DNA of 64,000 bases from Eubacteriaceae bacterium (lineage in GTDB: Bacteria; Bacillota; Clostridia; Eubacteriales; Eubacteriaceae). The stretch's first letter is position 1; each line of letters starts with the position of its first letter. A program made the translations under genes and the position numbers. Positions 4,971 through 64,000 of the stretch are shown here, in pieces. The notes beneath the pieces are model-generated. The model did not search any database and was not told the origin of the DNA. It saw only the letters and a list, made by a program, of their open reading frames with translations. The stretch spans positions 1-64,000 of the forward strand of contig JAAYJS010000031.1 in NCBI GenBank assembly GCA_012522805.1, given 5' to 3'.

Positions 4971-5086
4971 ACTGCGTGAGTGTCGTGCTGTAAAACAAGC
5001 AAATCATCGTAAATGCCGGCTCCTCACAAAACGATGAATTGTGTAGTGAAAGAAGTAGAGAGCACTTTTCACTTGTCTTTATAAAC

Positions 5087-5134
5087 AACAAAGAAACTGT
5101 AACAAATCATGATAATCAGCTACAGTCTCTTTGT
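5087..5134 (-). terminator. hairpin ending the leftward demethylase operon
   Basis: The imperfect inverted repeat ACAAAGAAACTGTA (5087-5102 region) / TACAGTCTCTTTGT (5121-5134) lies about 45 bp beyond the last leftward gene. The T-tract is weak on both strands, so it could be a terminator or a 3-prime mRNA stabiliser. Confidence 0.55.
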
Positions 5135-5180
5135 TCTGTGTGTATGTGATGGGCGGTTCACTTTGAGGTGATGGGATTCA

Positions 5181-5825
5181 TCATAGAGGATAAAAGCAAC
5201 AGTTTTCTTTTAAACATTCTTTATTTTTGGCATAGAAGGAACAATGAATGGTTCCTTCATCAGCAAGATGAATCTTTAAGTTTTCTCGAATAAAAGCAAC
5301 GCCTTGCAATAGGGCAATATAAGTATTGCGTTTACAGCAGCGAGGCCCCGAATATTTCGCCATCTCTATTAATCCAAGACCGGTTATGCGGTTGGTGTCG
5401 CTCCAAGATTTTTTGGATAAAGGCGTCGTATTGGTGAGTATGCTGTAAGCGATACCTAAACCTACGGCTGCGCCGCAACACCCATACAAACCGCAGAACC
5501 CTTTCAATACTTTTAAAGAACGCTCATAGGCAATTTTCAAGGCATTGTCGAGTGTTTTTCTATCCTCTCCCAGCGATCGGTAACTACAAGTCAACAACAC
5601 TGCGGATACCAAATAGTGATGAAACGGATGGTGAAAAGGTAATTCAGGAATGCCCATAATCTTTTCAGCTAATGCTACCGGGGCAAGATCTTGATTTTGA
5701 TCGTTAAAAGTATTCAGGCAAATTTCATTGACTTTATCGTAAGCGGGGATATCCTCCGGTAGAATTTCCATAACAAATGATGGTTGACCATCTATGACTG
5801 GTGTGCTTGAATCTTTAAGCGACAA
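5181..5825 (-). CDS. cysteine-rich DUF5714-like protein
   Basis: Protein of 214 aa with no signal peptide or membrane segment. The core GLYGCCGAAVGLGIAYS, the later GPRCCKRNTY and a C-terminal cluster with paired cysteines (NKECLKENCCFYPL) suggest a metal- or Fe-S-binding domain. This resembles the DUF5714 family, which has no established function. It is the last gene of the eight-gene leftward operon. Its apparent TTG start lies inside the stop region of the corrinoid-protein gene, so translation is probably coupled; an internal ATG at 5771 is an alternative. The context suggests a role in maturing or reactivating the corrinoid methyltransferases. I cannot assign a reaction. Confidence 0.6.
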   Translation of the reverse strand: MSLKDSSTPVIDGQPSFVMEILPEDIPAYDKVNEICLNTFNDQNQDLAPVALAEKIMGIPELPFHHPFHHYLVSAVLLTCSYRSLGEDRKTLDNALKIAYERSLKVLKGFCGLYGCCGAAVGLGIAYSILTNTTPLSKKSWSDTNRITGLGLIEMAKYSGPRCCKRNTYIALLQGVAFIRENLKIHLADEGTIHCSFYAKNKECLKENCCFYPL

Positions 5826-6450
5826 GCTCTTTCACCTTTTGTGCAGCAGAAGCCGCATCAGGCGTATAAGCATCTGCACCGATCTCATCAGCAAAGTCTT
5901 GGGTTATCGGTGCACCACCTACTATAATTTTGATTCTGTCTCTAAAGTCTGCCTCGTTTAAAGCTTGAACGGCTTCTCTTAAGGCGGGCATCGTAGTAGT
6001 TAAAAGAGCGGATAACCCTACGACGGCTACATCGGGATTCTCTTTTACTTTCTCAACAAAGGTTTGAGCTGGAACATCGACACCCAAATCCATTACTTCA
6101 AATCCGGCACTTTCAATCATCATACGTACAAGGTTTTTCCCTATATCGTGCAGATCGCCATGTACAGTACCTAGGATCATTTTACCACCAGCTTCTTGAT
6201 CGCCACTTGCTAAGTGAGGTTTTAAAACCTCTACCCCTTTTTTCATGGCTTTTGCTGCCAACAACATTTCGGGAACAAAGAGATCCCCGGCGGAAAAACG
6301 AGCTCCGACATCATCCATGGCGGAAATCATTCCTTCGTTTAGAATCATGTTGGGATCGATACCTTCTTGAATGGCTTCCTCTACTAATTTTGGTACAATA
6401 CGCACTTTGCCTTTACTGACATGATCGTGTATTTCTTGAATTTTAGACAT
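5815..6450 (-). CDS. corrinoid protein of a methyltransferase system (MttC/MtgC family)
   Basis: This 211-aa methyl carrier binds a cobamide and shuttles the methyl group between the substrate methyltransferase and the methyl-THF methyltransferase. An N-terminal helical B12-binding cap (about 1-85) is followed by a Rossmann-like cobalamin-binding domain with the D-x-H-x-x-G signature GDLHDIGKNLV; its His is the lower axial cobalt ligand in this family. The motif GLSALLTTTMP and a C-terminal GGAPIT complete the family pattern. The start has a GAGG site. It lies 12 bp after the methyl-THF methyltransferase gene. This is one of three corrinoid proteins in the window. Confidence 0.93.
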   Translation of the reverse strand: MSKIQEIHDHVSKGKVRIVPKLVEEAIQEGIDPNMILNEGMISAMDDVGARFSAGDLFVPEMLLAAKAMKKGVEVLKPHLASGDQEAGGKMILGTVHGDLHDIGKNLVRMMIESAGFEVMDLGVDVPAQTFVEKVKENPDVAVVGLSALLTTTMPALREAVQALNEADFRDRIKIIVGGAPITQDFADEIGADAYTPDAASAAQKVKELVA

Positions 6451-55223: not shown

Positions 55224-56594
55224 ATGGAATTAATTAAAGCAGGAGTTCAGTATATACTGAATTTGGGTGCAGCCACCATGTTGCCCCTCATCCTAACAAT
55301 TTTTGGTATGATTTTAGGACAAGGGTTTAAAAAATCCTTTAGAGCAGGTATTACGGTAGGTGTTGGTTTTACAGGTGTCAACCTAGTTATCGGTCTTTTG
55401 TCTGATTCGGTGGGGGTTGCGTCCAAAGCAATGATTGAGAGATTGGGTTTGCAACTGTCAATTATAGATGTCGGTTGGCCAGTAGCCGCGGCGATCACTT
55501 GGGCAACTCCGGTTGCAGTCATTCTGATCCCGATAATCTTCGCATTTAATATTTTACTTTTGTCTGTGAATATGACAAAAACAATGAATGTAGACATTTG
55601 GAATTATTGGCATTTAATTTTTGTAGGTGGTATGGCGTATTATGCTACAGATAGTATTTTTATCACCATTCTCGTAACTTTAATTAATGCATTTATTATA
55701 TTTAAACTGTCGGACTGGACAGCCCCAGCGGTAGAAGCGGAGTTCGGGTTACCCGGTGTATGTTTACCTCATGGTGAAACGGTTAACTGGGCTCCCATTA
55801 CCTTCTTATTAAACAGATTGTGGGACAAAATACCCGGCATCAACCGTATCGATATCAATGCAGATACAATGAAAGAAAAATTAGGCATTATGGGTGAACC
55901 GATGATGACCGGTTTGGTATTGGGTATCGGTATGGGCTTTTTAGCAGGATATGATTCTTCTAAAATTTTGCAACTTGGTATCCAGATGGCTGCAATCATG
56001 GTTATTTTACCAAGGATGGTTGGGCTACTTATGGAAGGCTTAATGCCGATTTCTGAAGGTGCACGTGAATTTGTTCAAAAAAGATTTCCAGGCAAAGAAG
56101 TTTATATCGGTTTGGATGCTGCAATTGCAACCGGACATCCCTCGGTTATTTCAACAGCGTTGATCATGATCCCGATTACTATTTTGTTGGCAGGGATTTT
56201 ACCTTTTAACAAAATGCTTCCTTTCGCCGACTTAGCTGTTCTTCCCTTTACGGTTATTTGGGCAGTAGCGGCATCTAGGGGTAATATCTTTAGAAGTGTC
56301 TTGAATGCTATCATTCAATTGACGATTATCTTCTTCATTGCAACTAATTTAGGAGCATTGACTACCACTATGGCAAGAGCGGTCGGATTTGCTTTCCCAG
56401 AAGGCGCTACGATGGTATCTGGTATCGATATGAGCTCCCACTTGACCGTATTCTTTATCTTGAAATTGCTTGATCCTTCCAATTTGCCTGAATTCTTATT
56501 AGGTGTCGGCGCAGCGGTCATCTTTTTCGGAAGTTGGTTTATTGTTCGCAACGACATCAAAAAAAGATACGTTGAAAACAAAGAAGTAGAATAA
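55224..56594 (+). CDS. gatC: PTS galactitol-type EIIC permease
   Basis: 456-aa membrane permease of the EIIC-GatC family: NLGAATMLPLILTIFGM at the start, VGFTGVNLVIGLLSDSVG and a run of helices to the end. It moves the polyol inward while it is phosphorylated by EIIB. Operon order A-C-B. Confidence 0.92.
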   Translation: MELIKAGVQYILNLGAATMLPLILTIFGMILGQGFKKSFRAGITVGVGFTGVNLVIGLLSDSVGVASKAMIERLGLQLSIIDVGWPVAAAITWATPVAVILIPIIFAFNILLLSVNMTKTMNVDIWNYWHLIFVGGMAYYATDSIFITILVTLINAFIIFKLSDWTAPAVEAEFGLPGVCLPHGETVNWAPITFLLNRLWDKIPGINRIDINADTMKEKLGIMGEPMMTGLVLGIGMGFLAGYDSSKILQLGIQMAAIMVILPRMVGLLMEGLMPISEGAREFVQKRFPGKEVYIGLDAAIATGHPSVISTALIMIPITILLAGILPFNKMLPFADLAVLPFTVIWAVAASRGNIFRSVLNAIIQLTIIFFIATNLGALTTTMARAVGFAFPEGATMVSGIDMSSHLTVFFILKLLDPSNLPEFLLGVGAAVIFFGSWFIVRNDIKKRYVENKEVE

Positions 56595-56606
56595 AAGGAG
56601 TTAACT

Positions 56607-56882
56607 ATGAAAAAAATAGCTGTAGCATGTGGTACTGGCATTGCAACCTCAACGGTTGTTACCATGAAAATTAAGGAAGCATTGGAAAAAAATAACATTA
56701 AGGCAGATGTTATTCAATGCAAAGTTGCTGAAATTGGACAATACGAAGATAATGTTGATTTAATTGTTACAACAACTTCTTACGAAAGTAAAAAAGTACC
56801 GGTTATTCGAGCCATTTCTTTTCTAACAGGAATCGGAATGGAAAGTGATATCGAAAAAATTATAGAAATTTTAAAAAAATAA
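56607..56882 (+). CDS. gatB: PTS galactitol-type EIIB
   Basis: 91-aa EIIB with the phosphorylated Cys8 in AVACGTGIATSTVV. It phosphorylates the substrate at the permease. The stop shares a base with the next start. AAAGGAG precedes the ATG. Confidence 0.92.
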   Translation: MKKIAVACGTGIATSTVVTMKIKEALEKNNIKADVIQCKVAEIGQYEDNVDLIVTTTSYESKKVPVIRAISFLTGIGMESDIEKIIEILKK

Positions 56883-57628
56883 TGAAAAAAGTGATTGTCA
56901 CAGGCGGTGCGAAGGGAATTGGTAAGGCTATTTGTGAAGATCAAATAAAACGGGGAAATTTTCCGATTATTTTGGACTTGGATAAGGAAAATGCCTGTTT
57001 AAACATCAGAAGATGGTCGGACCAATTCTCGGTGACCGCTGATTTTATCAAAGCAGATGTCACCGATTGGCAATCTATGGAAACTGCTGCGGCACAAGCC
57101 GAGGATAAACACGGTAAAATTGATATACTGGTGGTCAACGCCGGTGTTAGTCACAGGGCTTCTTTTGATGAATTGGGACCTAAGCTATGGCAAAAAACCA
57201 TCGATATCAATTTGACCGGTGCGTTTTTTACAGTGAAGGCATTTTATCGACATTTTACCGAATATAGAGAAGAAGCAGACGGTAGGATTATCTTTATCAC
57301 TTCCGGCTCAGCGATAACCGGTACTGGAGGTGGCGCCCATTATGCTGCGTCAAAGGCCGGCAATCATGGACTTATGCGCGCACTTTCTAAGGATCTGAAA
57401 AGAACCGGAACAACAGTTAATGCTATTGCTCCACGGGTTATCGCAACGGAATTGTTTGATGATCTCTACCCTGAACAAAAAAATAGAGATGCCATTTTAA
57501 ACTCTATACCAGTTGGTCGATTCGGAACTCCAGAAGATGTTGCCTCTTTGGTTAATTATTTGTGCTCTGAAGAAGCGAGCTATATTCATGGGCAAATCTT
57601 GCTGCTAGATGGAGGAAGAACTTATTAA
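56882..57628 (+). CDS. short-chain dehydrogenase/reductase
   Basis: 248-aa classical SDR: cofactor turn TGGAKGIGKA, NAG stretch VVNAGVS, catalytic Ser in ITSGSA and Tyr-x-x-x-Lys in YAASKAG. Likely oxidises a polyol or its phosphate imported by the PTS. Overlaps gatB by one base. Confidence 0.92.
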   Translation: MKKVIVTGGAKGIGKAICEDQIKRGNFPIILDLDKENACLNIRRWSDQFSVTADFIKADVTDWQSMETAAAQAEDKHGKIDILVVNAGVSHRASFDELGPKLWQKTIDINLTGAFFTVKAFYRHFTEYREEADGRIIFITSGSAITGTGGGAHYAASKAGNHGLMRALSKDLKRTGTTVNAIAPRVIATELFDDLYPEQKNRDAILNSIPVGRFGTPEDVASLVNYLCSEEASYIHGQILLLDGGRTY

Positions 57629-58660
57629 ATGAAAGCAATTGTTAAAACAAAAGAAGGTTACGACCAAATTGAATACATGGATGTAGAAGAGCCGCAAACT
57701 TATGGCGACAAGGTAAAAATTAAAGTTGCTTATGCAGGAATTTGCGGATTGGATATCCACACTTTTAAGGGCGATTATGCTAGCAACAAACCGCCAGTTA
57801 TTTTAGGTCACGAGTTTTCTGGTGTGGTAGCAGAGGTTGGGCCAGATGTCAAAAATTTTAAAGTAGGCGATCATGTCACTTCGGAAACAACTTTTGAAAC
57901 CTGTGGTACTTGCCTCTATTGCAAACAAAAGGACTATAACCTTTGTGATCATAGAAAAGGTTTAGGTACTCAGGCTGACGGAGGGTTTGCAGAATACGTT
58001 CTCTCAAGAGAAGAAAGCGTTCACCATGTACCGGACAATGTCTCTCTAAAATCGGCTGCCTTAACTGAACCATTGGCCTGTTGTGTACATGGCTTGTTGG
58101 AAAAAACGACCATTACTGAAGAAGATACGGTCCTAATCTTGGGGCCGGGCACCATGGGGTTATTGTGTGCTCAGGTTGCTTTAGCTGTAGGCGCTAAGGT
58201 TATGATTACTGGAATTACGAAGGATAAAAAGCGTTTGGATATAGCCGAAAAAATGGGTGTTCATCGAGCTATTAATGTTGAGACCGAAAATCTAGAAGAA
58301 GTTGTCAGTGAACAAACTAAAACTTTAGGCCCCACTTTGGTAGTGGACTGCTCCGGTTATATGCCAGCTGTTAACCAAGCACTTCGTTTAGTTCAAAAAA
58401 AAGGAACTGTTGTTCAAATTGGTATGTTTTCAGAACATGAAAATCTGATGGATCAGGATGCAATCATCCAAAGAGAAATCACCTATATCGGCAGTCGGAC
58501 ACAAAAACCCAGCTCATGGGATCTTTCCTTGAAATTAATGAAAGAAGGAAAGGTCAATCCGGAAGCGATCATTACCCAAGAAATTGAATTGAAAGACTTT
58601 AAAGAAGGCTTAAAGCGTCTAATGGAAGGCGATGAAGTCAAAACAGTTATTAAATTTTAA
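57629..58660 (+). CDS. zinc-dependent medium-chain dehydrogenase
   Basis: 343-aa polyol/sorbitol dehydrogenase-like MDR. Catalytic zinc: Cys in AGICGLDIH, GHE in LGHEFSGVVAEVG; structural zinc Cys set in CGTCLYCKQKDYNLC; nucleotide-binding GPGTMGLLCAQVA. Candidate for galactitol-1-phosphate or a similar polyol-phosphate 5-dehydrogenase. Directly follows the SDR. Confidence 0.92.
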   Translation: MKAIVKTKEGYDQIEYMDVEEPQTYGDKVKIKVAYAGICGLDIHTFKGDYASNKPPVILGHEFSGVVAEVGPDVKNFKVGDHVTSETTFETCGTCLYCKQKDYNLCDHRKGLGTQADGGFAEYVLSREESVHHVPDNVSLKSAALTEPLACCVHGLLEKTTITEEDTVLILGPGTMGLLCAQVALAVGAKVMITGITKDKKRLDIAEKMGVHRAINVETENLEEVVSEQTKTLGPTLVVDCSGYMPAVNQALRLVQKKGTVVQIGMFSEHENLMDQDAIIQREITYIGSRTQKPSSWDLSLKLMKEGKVNPEAIITQEIELKDFKEGLKRLMEGDEVKTVIKF

Positions 58661-58685: not shown

Positions 58686-58745
58686 AAAAGCCAACCTAGG
58701 CTCGTGCATCTCTTAAAAGATGCACGAGCCTAGGTTGGCTTTTTA
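58686..58745. terminator. bidirectional terminator between the gat and his operons
   Basis: A very long perfect stem (AAGCCAACCTAGGCTCGTGC and its complement) flanked by A- and T-runs separates convergent operons. Confidence 0.95.
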
Positions 58746-58761
58746 GATTCTATAACTTACT

Positions 58762-59385
58762 TTACTTTTGATATCTCTTGGTCAATTCTACGAAAAGATC
58801 TTCCCACGTAACCCCTTCGTTGTTCAATAAAACACTGAGGTGGTAAAGGAGATCCGAAGCTTCGTAGGTCAGCTCTTCCTGAGAATTGTTTTTAGCGGCG
58901 ATGATGGTTTCGGCGCTTTCCTCTCCGATTTTTTTGCAAATTTTATCGATCCCTTCTTCAAAGAGGTAATTGGTGTAGGACCCTTGCACCGGGTGCTGCT
59001 TTCGGTCTTCAATTTGGTCTGCCAAATTGCGCAGAATGGTGACATTGCCCGTTGCCCGATCAGAAATGGTGTGAATGGGCTTAAAAAAGCAAGAGGTTTC
59101 GCCGGTGTGGCAGGCCGGACCGCAGGGGAGCACTTCTAACAATAAACAATCGCCGTCGCAATCGCTGCGCACGTGGACAACTTCTTGGAAATGACCCGAT
59201 GTTTCGCCCTTTACCCAAAGCTGTTGGCGGCTTCTGCTGTAAAAGGTGGCGCGTCCGGTTTGGAGGGTTTGCGCCAAAGCTTCTTCGTTCATATAGGCTT
59301 GCATTAAAACCTCACGGGTGTGGTAGTCCTGTAAAATTGCAGGGATCAGGCCGTTTTGATCAAATTTTAGTTCTTGAATATCCAT
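58762..59385 (-). CDS. hisIE: bifunctional phosphoribosyl-AMP cyclohydrolase/ATP pyrophosphohydrolase
   Basis: 207-aa fusion for the second and third steps of histidine synthesis. HisI part (1-115): LMQAYMNEEALAQTLQTG, VRSDCDGDCLLL with zinc-binding Cys/Asp. HisE part (about 120-207): helical with EESAETIIAAKN and DLLYHLSVLL. Last gene of the his operon. Confidence 0.95.
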   Translation of the reverse strand: MDIQELKFDQNGLIPAILQDYHTREVLMQAYMNEEALAQTLQTGRATFYSRSRQQLWVKGETSGHFQEVVHVRSDCDGDCLLLEVLPCGPACHTGETSCFFKPIHTISDRATGNVTILRNLADQIEDRKQHPVQGSYTNYLFEEGIDKICKKIGEESAETIIAAKNNSQEELTYEASDLLYHLSVLLNNEGVTWEDLFVELTKRYQK

Positions 59386-59395
59386 GAAGTCCTTT

Positions 59396-60151
59396 CTAAA
59401 GATGGACGGTGAGTCCTTGTTCCTGTAAAAAACGCTTTAAATCGCCGATCAGAATTTCTTTATAGTGAAAAACCGAAGCGGCTAAGGCGGCATCGGCGCC
59501 GACTTTGAGCACGTCGGCAAAATGCTGCATTTCTCCTGCACCGCCGGAGGCGATAATGGGTATCCTCAGTTTTTCTGAGAGGATTCGGTTTAGGTCTAAG
59601 TCGTAACCTTCTTTGACGCCGTCCATATCGATGGAGTTGATGCAAATTTCCCCGGCACCCAGTTCTTGACCCCGCAAGGCCCATTCGATGGCATCCCAGC
59701 CGGTGTTTTCTCTGCCACCTTTGACGAAGACGTCCCAGGAACCGGCATTGTTTTTCTTGGCGTCGATGGAGAGTACCACGCATTGAGAGCCAAAACGCTC
59801 GGCGGCTTCCCCGATGAGGTCCGGGTTGGCCACGGCTGCGGAGTTGATGGACACTTTGTCGGCACCGGCATTGAGGACGGATGAAAAGTCTTCCAACTTG
59901 CGGATACCGCCTCCAATGGTTAAGGGGACGCCCACGGCGGCGGCGACCTCTTCGACGACGTGTAAAAAGATATCCCGCTCTTCGTAGGAGGCGGTTATGT
60001 CGTAAAAGACCAATTCGTCGGCACCGGCATCGGAATAAAACTTCGCCAAGTCCACGGGGTGGTCGACATCCTGAATATTTTGAAAGCGCTTGCCTTTGAC
60101 CACACGGCCATTAATGACATCTAAGCAGGGTATAATTTTTTTAGCCAACAT
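59396..60151 (-). CDS. hisF: imidazole glycerol phosphate synthase cyclase subunit
   Basis: 251-aa TIM barrel. It makes imidazole-glycerol phosphate and AICAR, using ammonia normally supplied by HisH. Catalytic Asp11 (IIPCLDV) and the second Asp (VLSIDAKK) are in place, as are the phosphate-binding GGGIRKLED and SGGAGEMQH. Residue 5 is Lys (MLAKKIIP), where T. maritima has the tunnel-gate Arg5; gate residues E46, K99 and the later Glu are kept. Since hisH beside it is broken, this subunit would have to use free ammonia. It overlaps hisA by 11 bp. Confidence 0.96.
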
Positions 60152-60869
60152 TTTCTTCTCTCTTTCTATCGAGGTAGGCCTTTAAATCCAAGGTCCCTTC
60201 GTAAATGGCTTTGCCGGTGATGGCGCCATAAATGCCCATATCTTCCAATTGGTCCAGATGTGCTTCTGTGGCAACGCCGCCGGCGGCAATAATGTTCATA
60301 TTTAAACTGCGATTGAGAAGGTCCAACATTTGAAAATTAGGACCCGTGAGCATCCCGTCTTTACTGATATCGGTATAAACCAAGGTACTCAACCCCAATC
60401 GTTCCAACTTGGTGGCTAAGGCTAAGGCCTCTACAGCCGAGGTTTCCACCCAACCCTTCACGGCAACCATGCCGTGGTTGGCATCTAAGGATACGCAAAT
60501 TTGTTCATCGTAACGGTGGATCAGTTGTTCGATAAAGGGTGTGTTTTCGACGGCTTGGGTTCCGATGATGATGCGCCCGACGCCGATATCGATATAGGCA
60601 TCTGCGGTTTCCATGTTGCGAATACCGCCACCGACCTGCACCGGTATGTTCACGCTTTGAACCATATCGCTGATGAGTTTTAAATTGACGGGCAGTCCGT
60701 CAAAGGCGCCGTCCAAGTCGATGATATGTAGGTACTCAGCACCTTTTTCTTCCAAGTCTTTGGCGACGGCAACGGGGTCGTCAAAATAGATGGTTTCTTG
60801 GTCTTTTTTGCCTTGTGACAGGCGAACACATTTTTGATTTTTAATGTCTATAGCTGGCAAGATGATCAT
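60141..60869 (-). CDS. hisA: ProFAR isomerase
   Basis: 242-aa TIM-barrel isomerase of histidine synthesis. [17 protein letters not shown] with catalytic Asp8, [29 protein letters not shown] with the second Asp. AAGGAG precedes the ATG. It follows the hisH remnants directly. Confidence 0.96.
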
Positions 60870-60879
60870 TCAGTACTCT

Positions 60880-61456
60880 CCTTAAAATTTTAAACAATTG
60901 CAAACCGGCACCGCTTTTGAGGTGCACGATACCCCACGATGTTCCCCTTCAGACGAGTGCGGGATTTTAAATCTCCGTCCTTCGTAGAAGTAAGATGGTT
61001 TCCTCTCGATGAGGGGAACAATGGGATGGGAATGGACACAAGGCACAACAAGTGCTTTGGCAACCGGGCTTGCAAAGCTTTTGCTCTACCCAACCCATAC
61101 ATTCCAAGCCCATAGGGGTAGCTTTGAGTCTTGTATGTTTATTTTAGCAATACAACCTTCAACAAAACCCAACCCGTCTGCATCTCCAATCGTTCCACCC
61201 CTCTTTTTAAATCGTACCCGTATGCCCAAATAAAATGATAGAAGGGGTTTGCCACAGTGCTGCCGTTGCGGATGGTACCCGCCAGTGCGCAGCGATCCCG
61301 TGGGTAGCCAAAGGCACCGAGATCGGGCAATAGAACTTCTAGTTTGGTGGTGAGGCAAGGGTCTCCGGTTATGGGTGGGCAGGTCCAATAGCTTTCAGCT
61401 ATTTCCGACGGATCGAAGTCTGCCATGGGGCTATCCGAGTAGCTATCAGAAGATGC
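60880..61456 (-). pseudogene. hisH: decayed imidazole glycerol phosphate synthase glutaminase subunit
   Basis: The position between hisB and hisA and the length (about 575 bp) are exactly those of hisH, but no frame is open. Fragments in different frames match the family in the right order: ITGDPCLTTKLEVLLPDLGA (about 61307-61364), GKPLLSFYLGIRVRF (about 61210-61253), GGTIGDADGLGFVEG (about 61157-61203) and KSGAGLQLFK (60889-60918). The nucleophile site reads SFYLGIR where functional HisH has GICLGMQ, so Cys is Tyr. At least two frameshifts plus stop codons are present. It cannot make a glutaminase. A functional copy elsewhere cannot be excluded. Confidence 0.88.
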
Positions 61457-62044
61457 CTACTCGATGACCCCCTTGGTGGAGGGGATGCCTTTGACGGTGG
61501 GTTCCATGGCTACGGCGGTCTTTAAGGTCCGTCCAAAACCTTTAAAAAGACCTTCAGCGATGTGGTGATTGTTTTTTCCATAAAGACAGGTGGCGTGGAG
61601 AGTGACTTTGGCATTGTTCACAAAGGCAATAAAAAACTCTTCGATCATTTCGGTTTCCAAATCTCCGATCATTTCTCTGGTAAAGGGTACGTCGTAAACC
61701 AGGGTGGGCCGTCCACTGATGTCGATACACAAACGGCATAGGGCTTCATCCATGGGTAAGTAACAATGGGCATAACGGGTAATACCGGTTTTATCGCCAA
61801 TGGCTTGGGTAAAGGCTTGACCCAGCACAATGCCGATGTCTTCCACCAAGTGGTGGTTATCCACGCCATCCCCTTGACCCGCAAGGGTCAAATCGAATTG
61901 CCCGTGGGCGGCAAAAAGAGTCAGCATGTGGTCAAAAAAACCGATGCCGGTCTGGATGTCGGACTGACCCGACCCGTCTAAATTAAAAGTTAACTGGATG
62001 GATGTTTCCGCAGTGTTACGATGGATGGTTGCAACTCTGGTCAT
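61457..62044 (-). CDS. hisB: imidazoleglycerol-phosphate dehydratase
   Basis: 196-aa dehydratase. Metal-binding His motifs: GFFDHML, DNHHLVEDIG and KNNHHIAEGLFK, with HATCLYG. The ATG at 62044 follows AAGGAGG and overlaps the hisC end by 29 bp; a longer frame to 62071 lacks a ribosome site. Confidence 0.95.
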   Translation of the reverse strand: MTRVATIHRNTAETSIQLTFNLDGSGQSDIQTGIGFFDHMLTLFAAHGQFDLTLAGQGDGVDNHHLVEDIGIVLGQAFTQAIGDKTGITRYAHCYLPMDEALCRLCIDISGRPTLVYDVPFTREMIGDLETEMIEEFFIAFVNNAKVTLHATCLYGKNNHHIAEGLFKGFGRTLKTAVAMEPTVKGIPSTKGVIE

Positions 62045-63086
62045 GGCATACCTCCTTGAGAATTTTTGCAATTTTTTTGTTTTCTTCCGGGGAGCCGATG
62101 GTTAGGCGAATGGCGTGATCATCGGGAAAATATCGGATTAAAATATTGTTGGCCTCCATGGTGTTGTAGATGGCTTCTGCCTTGGGTGTTTTAAAATAGA
62201 TGAAGTTGGAAGCCGCCGGATAAGTTTGAACATCGGGCAAGCACTGCAACAAGTCGTTGATTTTACATTTTTCATCTTTCAATAAAACCAGTCGCTCTTT
62301 TAAAAGATCTCGGTTATTGAGCACGATTTCCGCTGCGATTTGCGTCAAACTGTTGATGTTGTAAGGGGCTTTAACCTTATAGAGATAGTCGATGAGTTTG
62401 GGGTTGCCCAAGCAATACCCACAGCGCAGGGACGCTAAACCGAAAGCCTTGGAAAGAGTCCGCATGATGATGAGGCGTTCGGGGTACATGTCGATCAAGT
62501 CCCCCATGCTGCTGCCGTGAAATTCCATATAGGCCTCATCTAAAACGACCAAGCTTTGTGTGTTGTCGATGATATCGACAATCTCTTCTCTGCTGAACAG
62601 ATACCCTGTGGGGTTATTGGGATTACAAATAAAAATCATTTTGGCCTGATGGGTGTTGGCGAGATCAATCATCGCTTTGCAATCGGGAACACCCTCTTCG
62701 GTATCGGGAACATCCATAAAGGTGGCCCCTGCAATTTCAGCCCAAATGCCGTACATGGCAAAGCCCGGGCTATGGGAGACGGTAATTTCTCCGGGGGATA
62801 CGAAAGTTTGGTACAGCATAGCGACCAGTTCGTCGGAGCCGTTGCCGCAGATGTGGTGGTCTTCCGGGTATCCGGTATAGTCCGACAAAGCGGTGAGTAA
62901 ACGCCGAAAGCCTGCATCGGGATAGCGGTTTAAAGGCGCCGCCATAATTTGTTGACAGATCTCTTCCTTTAAAACGGTGGGAATATCCCAGGGGCACTCG
63001 TTGGCATTGACGACAATCTCGTAATCCGGTGGTGTGACCCGATAAGCATTGAGTTTTTCGATAACCGGTCTGACATAAGAACTCAT
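62016..63086 (-). CDS. hisC: histidinol-phosphate aminotransferase
   Basis: 356-aa PLP enzyme (fold type I). [33 protein letters not shown] and the Schiff-base Lys in [11 protein letters not shown] are all normal. The start overlaps hisD by 4 bp (ATGA). Confidence 0.96.
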
Positions 63087-64000
63087 TGAAACCGCCTTTC
63101 TACACTGAGTGCGTGGGCATCTAAACCTTCGGAACGGGCAAAAGTAGCAATTTTTTGATAGACTTTTTTCAAAGCCGCTCGATCGTATTGGATGATGGAG
63201 CTTCTTTTAATAAAGTCGTACACCCCAAGGGGAGAAGAAAAGCGGGCGGTACCCGAAGTGGGTAGGGTGTGGTTGGGCCCTGCAAAATAGTCTCCCAAGG
63301 GTTCGGGGGTATAATGTCCAATAAAAAAGGCACCGGCATTGTACAGGTGTTCCAGAGCTTCCTCGGGGTTTTCCAGTAAAATCTCCAAATGCTCCGGGGC
63401 AATGGCGTTGGCTAGGGCATAGGCTTCTTCGAGATTGTGTACATCAAAAATAAACCCGTAATCCGCAATGGCCTTGGCGGCGATGTCCTTCCTTCCCAGA
63501 TCTTCCTCTAGTTGCTTGGCAATGGCCGCTTCGACGGCATCGCCAAAGGCGGGGTCGGTGGTAATCAGAATAGCCATGGCCCTCTCGTCGTGTTCCGCTT
63601 GGGAGAGTAAATCTCCTGCGACGATAGCCGGATCGGTATCGATACCGTCGGTGATCACCAGCACTTCGCTGGGACCGGCGATCATATCGATGGCCACCTT
63701 TCCGAAAACTTCTCGCTTGGCTAAGGCGACAAAAATATTGCCGGGACCGACGATTTTATCCACCGGGGCGACGGTTTCGGTACCGTAGGCCAAGGCGGCT
63801 ACCGCTTGGGCACCCCCCACCTTATACACACGGTGTACCCCTGCAATTTGGGCTGCCGCTAAAATGGCCGGAGCAACCTTGCCGTTTTTTTGCGGCGGTG
63901 TGACGATGGATAACTCCGATACACCTGCTACCAAAGCGGGGATAGCATCCATCAACACTGTGGACGGATAGGCAGCCTTTCCTCCGGGGACGTACAGCCC
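63083..64000 (-). CDS. hisD: histidinol dehydrogenase, partial
   Basis: The 5-prime part lies outside the window; 306 codons are visible from the edge. It opens with [19 protein letters not shown], which is a conserved HisD region, then [19 protein letters not shown] and [16 protein letters not shown]. Zinc enzyme for the last two steps of histidine synthesis. Confidence 0.95.

Follow-up and report, generated by a model that had tools for sequence, protein, structure and literature searches.

HisF is the cyclase subunit of imidazole glycerol phosphate (IGP) synthase and can use ammonia by itself in vitro (PMC5919458). In living cells, hisH mutants of E. coli and Salmonella are auxotrophic despite the ammonia present in minimal medium (PMC3896937), and HisF alone is therefore not always enough. 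A hisH deletion mutant of C. glutamicum grows in ammonium minimal medium (unpublished observations reported in PMC3896937), and hisH mutants of K. pneumoniae are described as rescued by high ammonium in the work of Rieder et al. (1994), as that work is cited in PMC5919458. Natural hisH pseudogenes, and the ammonia argument that goes with them, are already known from Blochmanniella endosymbionts, for which the authors suggest that histidine can still be made from ammonia (PMC12779916).

The locus described here resembles that of Blochmanniella in that hisH has decayed in place naturally and the same ammonia argument can be made (PMC12779916); however, Blochmanniella are carpenter ant endosymbionts, whereas the present case is a bacterium with a 2.0 Mb genome that has kept its his operon and belongs to a class with many hisH losses. 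C. glutamicum provides the parallel of a HisF that sustains growth on ammonium minimal medium without HisH, but in a laboratory-made mutant of a wild type with functional hisH. For Klebsiella, the likeness is ammonia-dependent IGP formation by HisF only in vivo (as cited in PMC5919458), which would also apply here, although laboratory mutants there stand against natural gene loss in our case. Word searches of the open literature, with most subscription papers outside their scope, turned up no account of repeated hisH loss in this class, nor of the HisF signature set out below, and both appear unreported. This wider pattern of recurrence is a more interesting result than the single pseudogene.

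Organization of the his operon

The his operon forms the last 5 kb of the window (the whole 64,000-nucleotide stretch of DNA analysed), lies on the minus strand, and runs on into the contig beyond. The genome assembly comprises 2.0 Mb in 47 contigs and is 97.8% complete. Across the window and the contig beyond it, the gene order is hisZ, hisG, hisD, hisC, hisB, a gap, hisA, hisF, and hisIE, with the following features (window coordinates unless stated otherwise):

58691–58738, two-way: terminator-like hairpin with a 20-bp stem at the end of the his operon (hairpin search)
58762–59385, minus strand: hisIE, intact ORF (homologues adjoin hisF in other genomes)
59396–60151, minus strand: hisF, intact, catalytic D11 and D130 present (TIGR00735, 350 bits)
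60141–60869, minus strand: hisA, intact (Pfam His_biosynth, 2.4e-78)
60878–61424, minus strand: hisH pseudogene, a collinear remnant of HisH residues ~10–199 (frameshift-aware alignment)
61457–62047, minus strand: hisB, imidazoleglycerol-phosphate dehydratase, intact (Pfam IGPD, 1e-62; ORF); the ORF is open as far as 62071, with the ATG at 62047 as the probable start
62016–63086, minus strand: hisC, intact ORF (homologues in other his operons)
63083–64000, minus strand: hisD, running beyond the window to contig position 64366 (contig ORFs; homologues in other his operons)
Contig positions 64449–66316, minus strand: hisG and hisZ, upstream of hisD (contig ORFs)

All eight remaining his genes (hisZ, G, D, C, B, A, F, and IE) are open ORFs. 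A Shine-Dalgarno-like AAGGAGAG precedes the ATG of hisA, which should thus be translatable in spite of the broken gene upstream. A hisJ-type histidinol phosphatase in the genome scores over its cut-off; therefore, hisH is the sole gap found in the histidine pathway. The contig stretch holding the start of the operon gave no Rfam match to an RNA regulator at gathering score, and a search of the coding strand of the hisH remnant found no terminator-like hairpin.

The hisH remnant

The gap between the hisB stop (61457) and the hisA start (60869) measures 587 bases and is the usual site of hisH in relatives; we are nearly certain that it carries a hisH pseudogene. No family was matched in a Pfam search of single reading frames across the gap, as expected because the gene is broken. 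We therefore rely on a frameshift-tolerant dynamic-programming alignment against a profile of intact HisH proteins from 12 same-family genomes. The remnant spans profile positions 10–199 of 202 in order and without rearrangement (window 61424 to 60878), a collinear match that marks descent from hisH at the conserved hisB/hisA site; the start region, up to 61456, is too decayed for alignment. With a frame-break penalty of -10, the alignment scores 102.5, against 25.1 +/- 2.6 (maximum 35.6) in 60 dinucleotide shuffles, or ~30 shuffle standard deviations over background. At this severe penalty, 6 frame breaks and 3 stops are needed, and 53 of 178 residues are identical; a mild penalty gives 147.7 versus 29.1 +/- 4.1 in shuffles, with 17 breaks, and the real lesion count probably lies between the two figures. 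An earlier profile from other relatives, which included one mis-oriented row, scored 125 versus 25.3 +/- 3.4, with the opposite strand at background (24).

The nucleophile elbow LLGICLGMQ (core GICLGMQ) reads LLSFYLGIR in the remnant, so that Tyr stands at the position of the catalytic Cys expected of HisH (TIGR01855), and the gap holds no single open frame of ~200 aa scoring over the family cut-off. The region matches only itself within the genome, which gives no sign of a repeat, and no close sister genome with the same pseudogene was found. The preliminary description had read this gap as a hisH decayed in place, with ordered HisH fragments in different frames, a nucleophile segment reading SFYLGIR, and intact hisB, hisA, hisF, hisC, and hisIE around it; each of these readings is borne out by the alignment, including the frameshift-aware comparison that it had proposed, and by the full-length ORFs of the neighbors.

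Absence of hisH among related genomes

The same description had handled the loss as an isolated oddity, whereas it proves to be one case of a recurrent loss. Among 392 genomes of the same class, each at least 95% complete, hisF is present in 284 and hisH in 259; 27 of the 284 genomes with hisF (9.5%, the genome under study included) have no hisH, and an order-level survey added one further such genome (G046). When the hisF neighborhoods of the 27 other HisH-less genomes were searched with the His proteins of the window, hisB was found directly before hisA in 16 loci, and a purC-like gene lay between the two in another 6, such that 22 of the 27 have one or the other arrangement. Apart from hisH, the his operon is complete in most of the HisH-less genomes. 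No HisH-like ORF was found in these 27 hisF loci, and no amidotransferase gene stands in place of hisH in the operons.

A maximum-likelihood tree built from 94 HisF rows requires 15 changes between presence and absence of HisH by the best estimate (24 with shuffled labels), at least 11 of which are forced by well-supported branches; long branches leave some placements unsure. HisH-less rows lie among HisH-encoding rows of the same family (e.g., f48, f23, f21, f36, and f62), and also beside HisH-encoding rows of the same genus (g160 and g58). Transfer of his genes could explain some of the changes.

The purC-like gene, for SAICAR synthase, occurs at six loci (L043, positions 5000–6150; L049; L050; L054; L056; and L058) in families f10 and f72. 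At ~1 kb, this hisB/hisA insert was a candidate replacement amidotransferase, and was rejected as PurC-like, an identity judged by sequence rather than by profile search. With this gene in that position, the his operon is tied to purine synthesis, where the by-product AICAR is used again. Among the remaining HisH-less genomes, the his operon of G064 (L061) has no hisA beside hisF and also no hisH; in G046, G190, G244, and G281 (L041, L055, L057, and L060), hisF lies apart from the other his genes, and HisF may have another role.

Divergence of HisF

We considered 76 HisF columns that are identical in at least 64 of the 65 rows from HisH-encoding genomes. The residues that we take to be the tunnel gate of T. 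maritima HisF are largely kept in the 27 HisH-less rows: R5 in 25, E46 in 27, K99 in 25, and E167 in 26. The catalytic pair of T. maritima HisF, D11 and D130 (PMC5919458), is present in 27 of 27. Three positions that are identical in 65 of 65 HisH-encoding rows have relaxed: R249 (kept in 13 of 27), which PMC9032424 and PMC12828452 give as the hinge with W123 of HisH; Q123 (14 of 27), which first recognizes glutamine (PMC9052757); and D98 (18 of 27), which belongs to the interface network (PMC9052757). T53, T78, F49, and R146, which are not known interface residues, drift too. Taken together, the positions named in the literature are just slightly more relaxed than the other columns (mean 22.3 vs. 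25.1 of 27 kept), since the conserved gate residues are among them. Tests on independent pairs point the same way, although most are too small for significance (single positions: median p 0.125 at D98, Q123, and R249; 0.008 at position 74).

HisA of the same operon serves as a control. Mean identity to the HisH-encoding rows is 0.58 for HisF of HisH-less genomes versus 0.66 for the others, compared with 0.484 versus 0.499 for HisA; the HisF-minus-HisA mean is 0.096 versus 0.161 (Mann–Whitney p = 4e-9, uncorrected for relatedness). In this comparison it is HisF, and not HisA, that has diverged faster in HisH-less genomes.

HisF of the window scores 350.5 bits against a TIGR00735 cut-off of 294.6. 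In common with the glutamine-dependent HisH–HisF synthase, it keeps D11, D130, E46, K99, and E167, but differs in that the glutaminase is a pseudogene, gate residue R5 is Lys, and hinge residue R249 is His. With D31H, these make three departures at invariant positions; by comparison, 54 of the 65 HisH-encoding rows have no departure, and none has more than two. The three departures fit a recent loss of HisH. Lys at position 5 recurs in 2 of the 27 HisH-less genomes and in 0 of the 65 with HisH.

Explanations for the loss of hisH

We consider it probable that hisH has decayed under a retained operon, that HisF runs alone on ammonia, and that the window captures an intermediate. Small insertions, deletions, and substitutions would have turned hisH into a pseudogene, the rest of the his operon being kept under selection; HisF would take free ammonia without its glutaminase partner, and histidine synthesis would go on wherever ammonium is plentiful. 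Many other lineages of the class would stand at the end state, with a complete operon, no hisH, and a HisF free of HisH-contact constraints. The genome encodes an otherwise complete pathway with no HisH, and an ammonium-fed, HisF-only IGP synthase is likely here: it is supported by the many other genomes that have complete his operons without hisH, by the relaxed HisH-contact residues of HisF, and by two laboratory precedents, one from Klebsiella (as cited in PMC5919458) and the other from C. glutamicum (PMC3896937). The preliminary description had already suggested that histidine could still be made at high ammonium. We infer, for this organism, a running pathway with ammonia as the nitrogen donor. 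The changed gate residue, R5K, is a point against HisF acting alone. For the class, it seems rather likely that an ammonium-fed histidine pathway without HisH is a recurrent natural state, many times reached and followed by drift of HisF contacts, of which the window would be an intermediate.

It is unlikely that histidine is instead taken from the surroundings and that neutral decay has begun across the entire operon, with hisH the first to go by chance. The genome, at only 2.0 Mb, would suit such a course; however, many lesions are concentrated in the 547 bases of hisH and the eight other his genes show no visible break, a pattern improbable if decay were even, and other lineages retain operons that are complete apart from hisH, the tree requiring 11 or more changes.

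Supply of HisF by another glutamine amidotransferase (GATase), most plausibly of PabA/TrpG type, is highly improbable. One such protein of 195 aa is encoded in the genome (C18:37371), but its gene is immediately followed by a pabB-like gene, the partner expected for it; R249 of HisF is changed, with no hint of a maintained docking surface, and hisH is replaced by no amidotransferase gene in the other HisH-less operons. By size, two class I GATases of 547 and 534 aa fit PyrG and GuaA, and one of 376 aa fits CarA; a further class I match is a peptidase-like protein.

A genome-wide search for a second hisH, which the preliminary description had called for, found nothing that reaches the HisH cut-off in the assembly, the only weak match (21 bits) being a CobQ-like protein. 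There is very little probability that the breaks arose as errors of sequencing or assembly, or that the unassembled part of the genome conceals an intact hisH. Although the assembly is in 47 contigs and 97.8% complete, a single gene carries no fewer than 6 frame breaks and 3 stops and has lost its catalytic Cys, with eight open his genes around it, and a second copy would have to fall in the missing ~2%.

Implications of a probable HisF-only pathway

The absence of hisH from about one in ten hisF-encoding relatives points to natural histidine synthesis in which HisF takes free ammonia. The finding is also relevant to the proposal of an early histidine synthesis that used free ammonia and HisF alone (discussed in PMC5919458). 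Because HisH is counted as required for predicted histidine prototrophy in a large survey of gut-bacteria genomes (Table 1 of PMC9026213), the HisH-less genomes, about one-tenth of those with hisF in the class, could be miscalled as auxotrophs. The losses are also natural replicates in which a textbook enzyme of ammonia channelling is deprived of one of its halves, and may reveal which residues of HisF exist solely for the partnership with HisH.

Downstream boundary of the operon

The hairpin at 58691–58738 is very strong, and separates the his operon from a convergent locus (55224–58660) of apparent sugar-alcohol transport and dehydrogenase genes.
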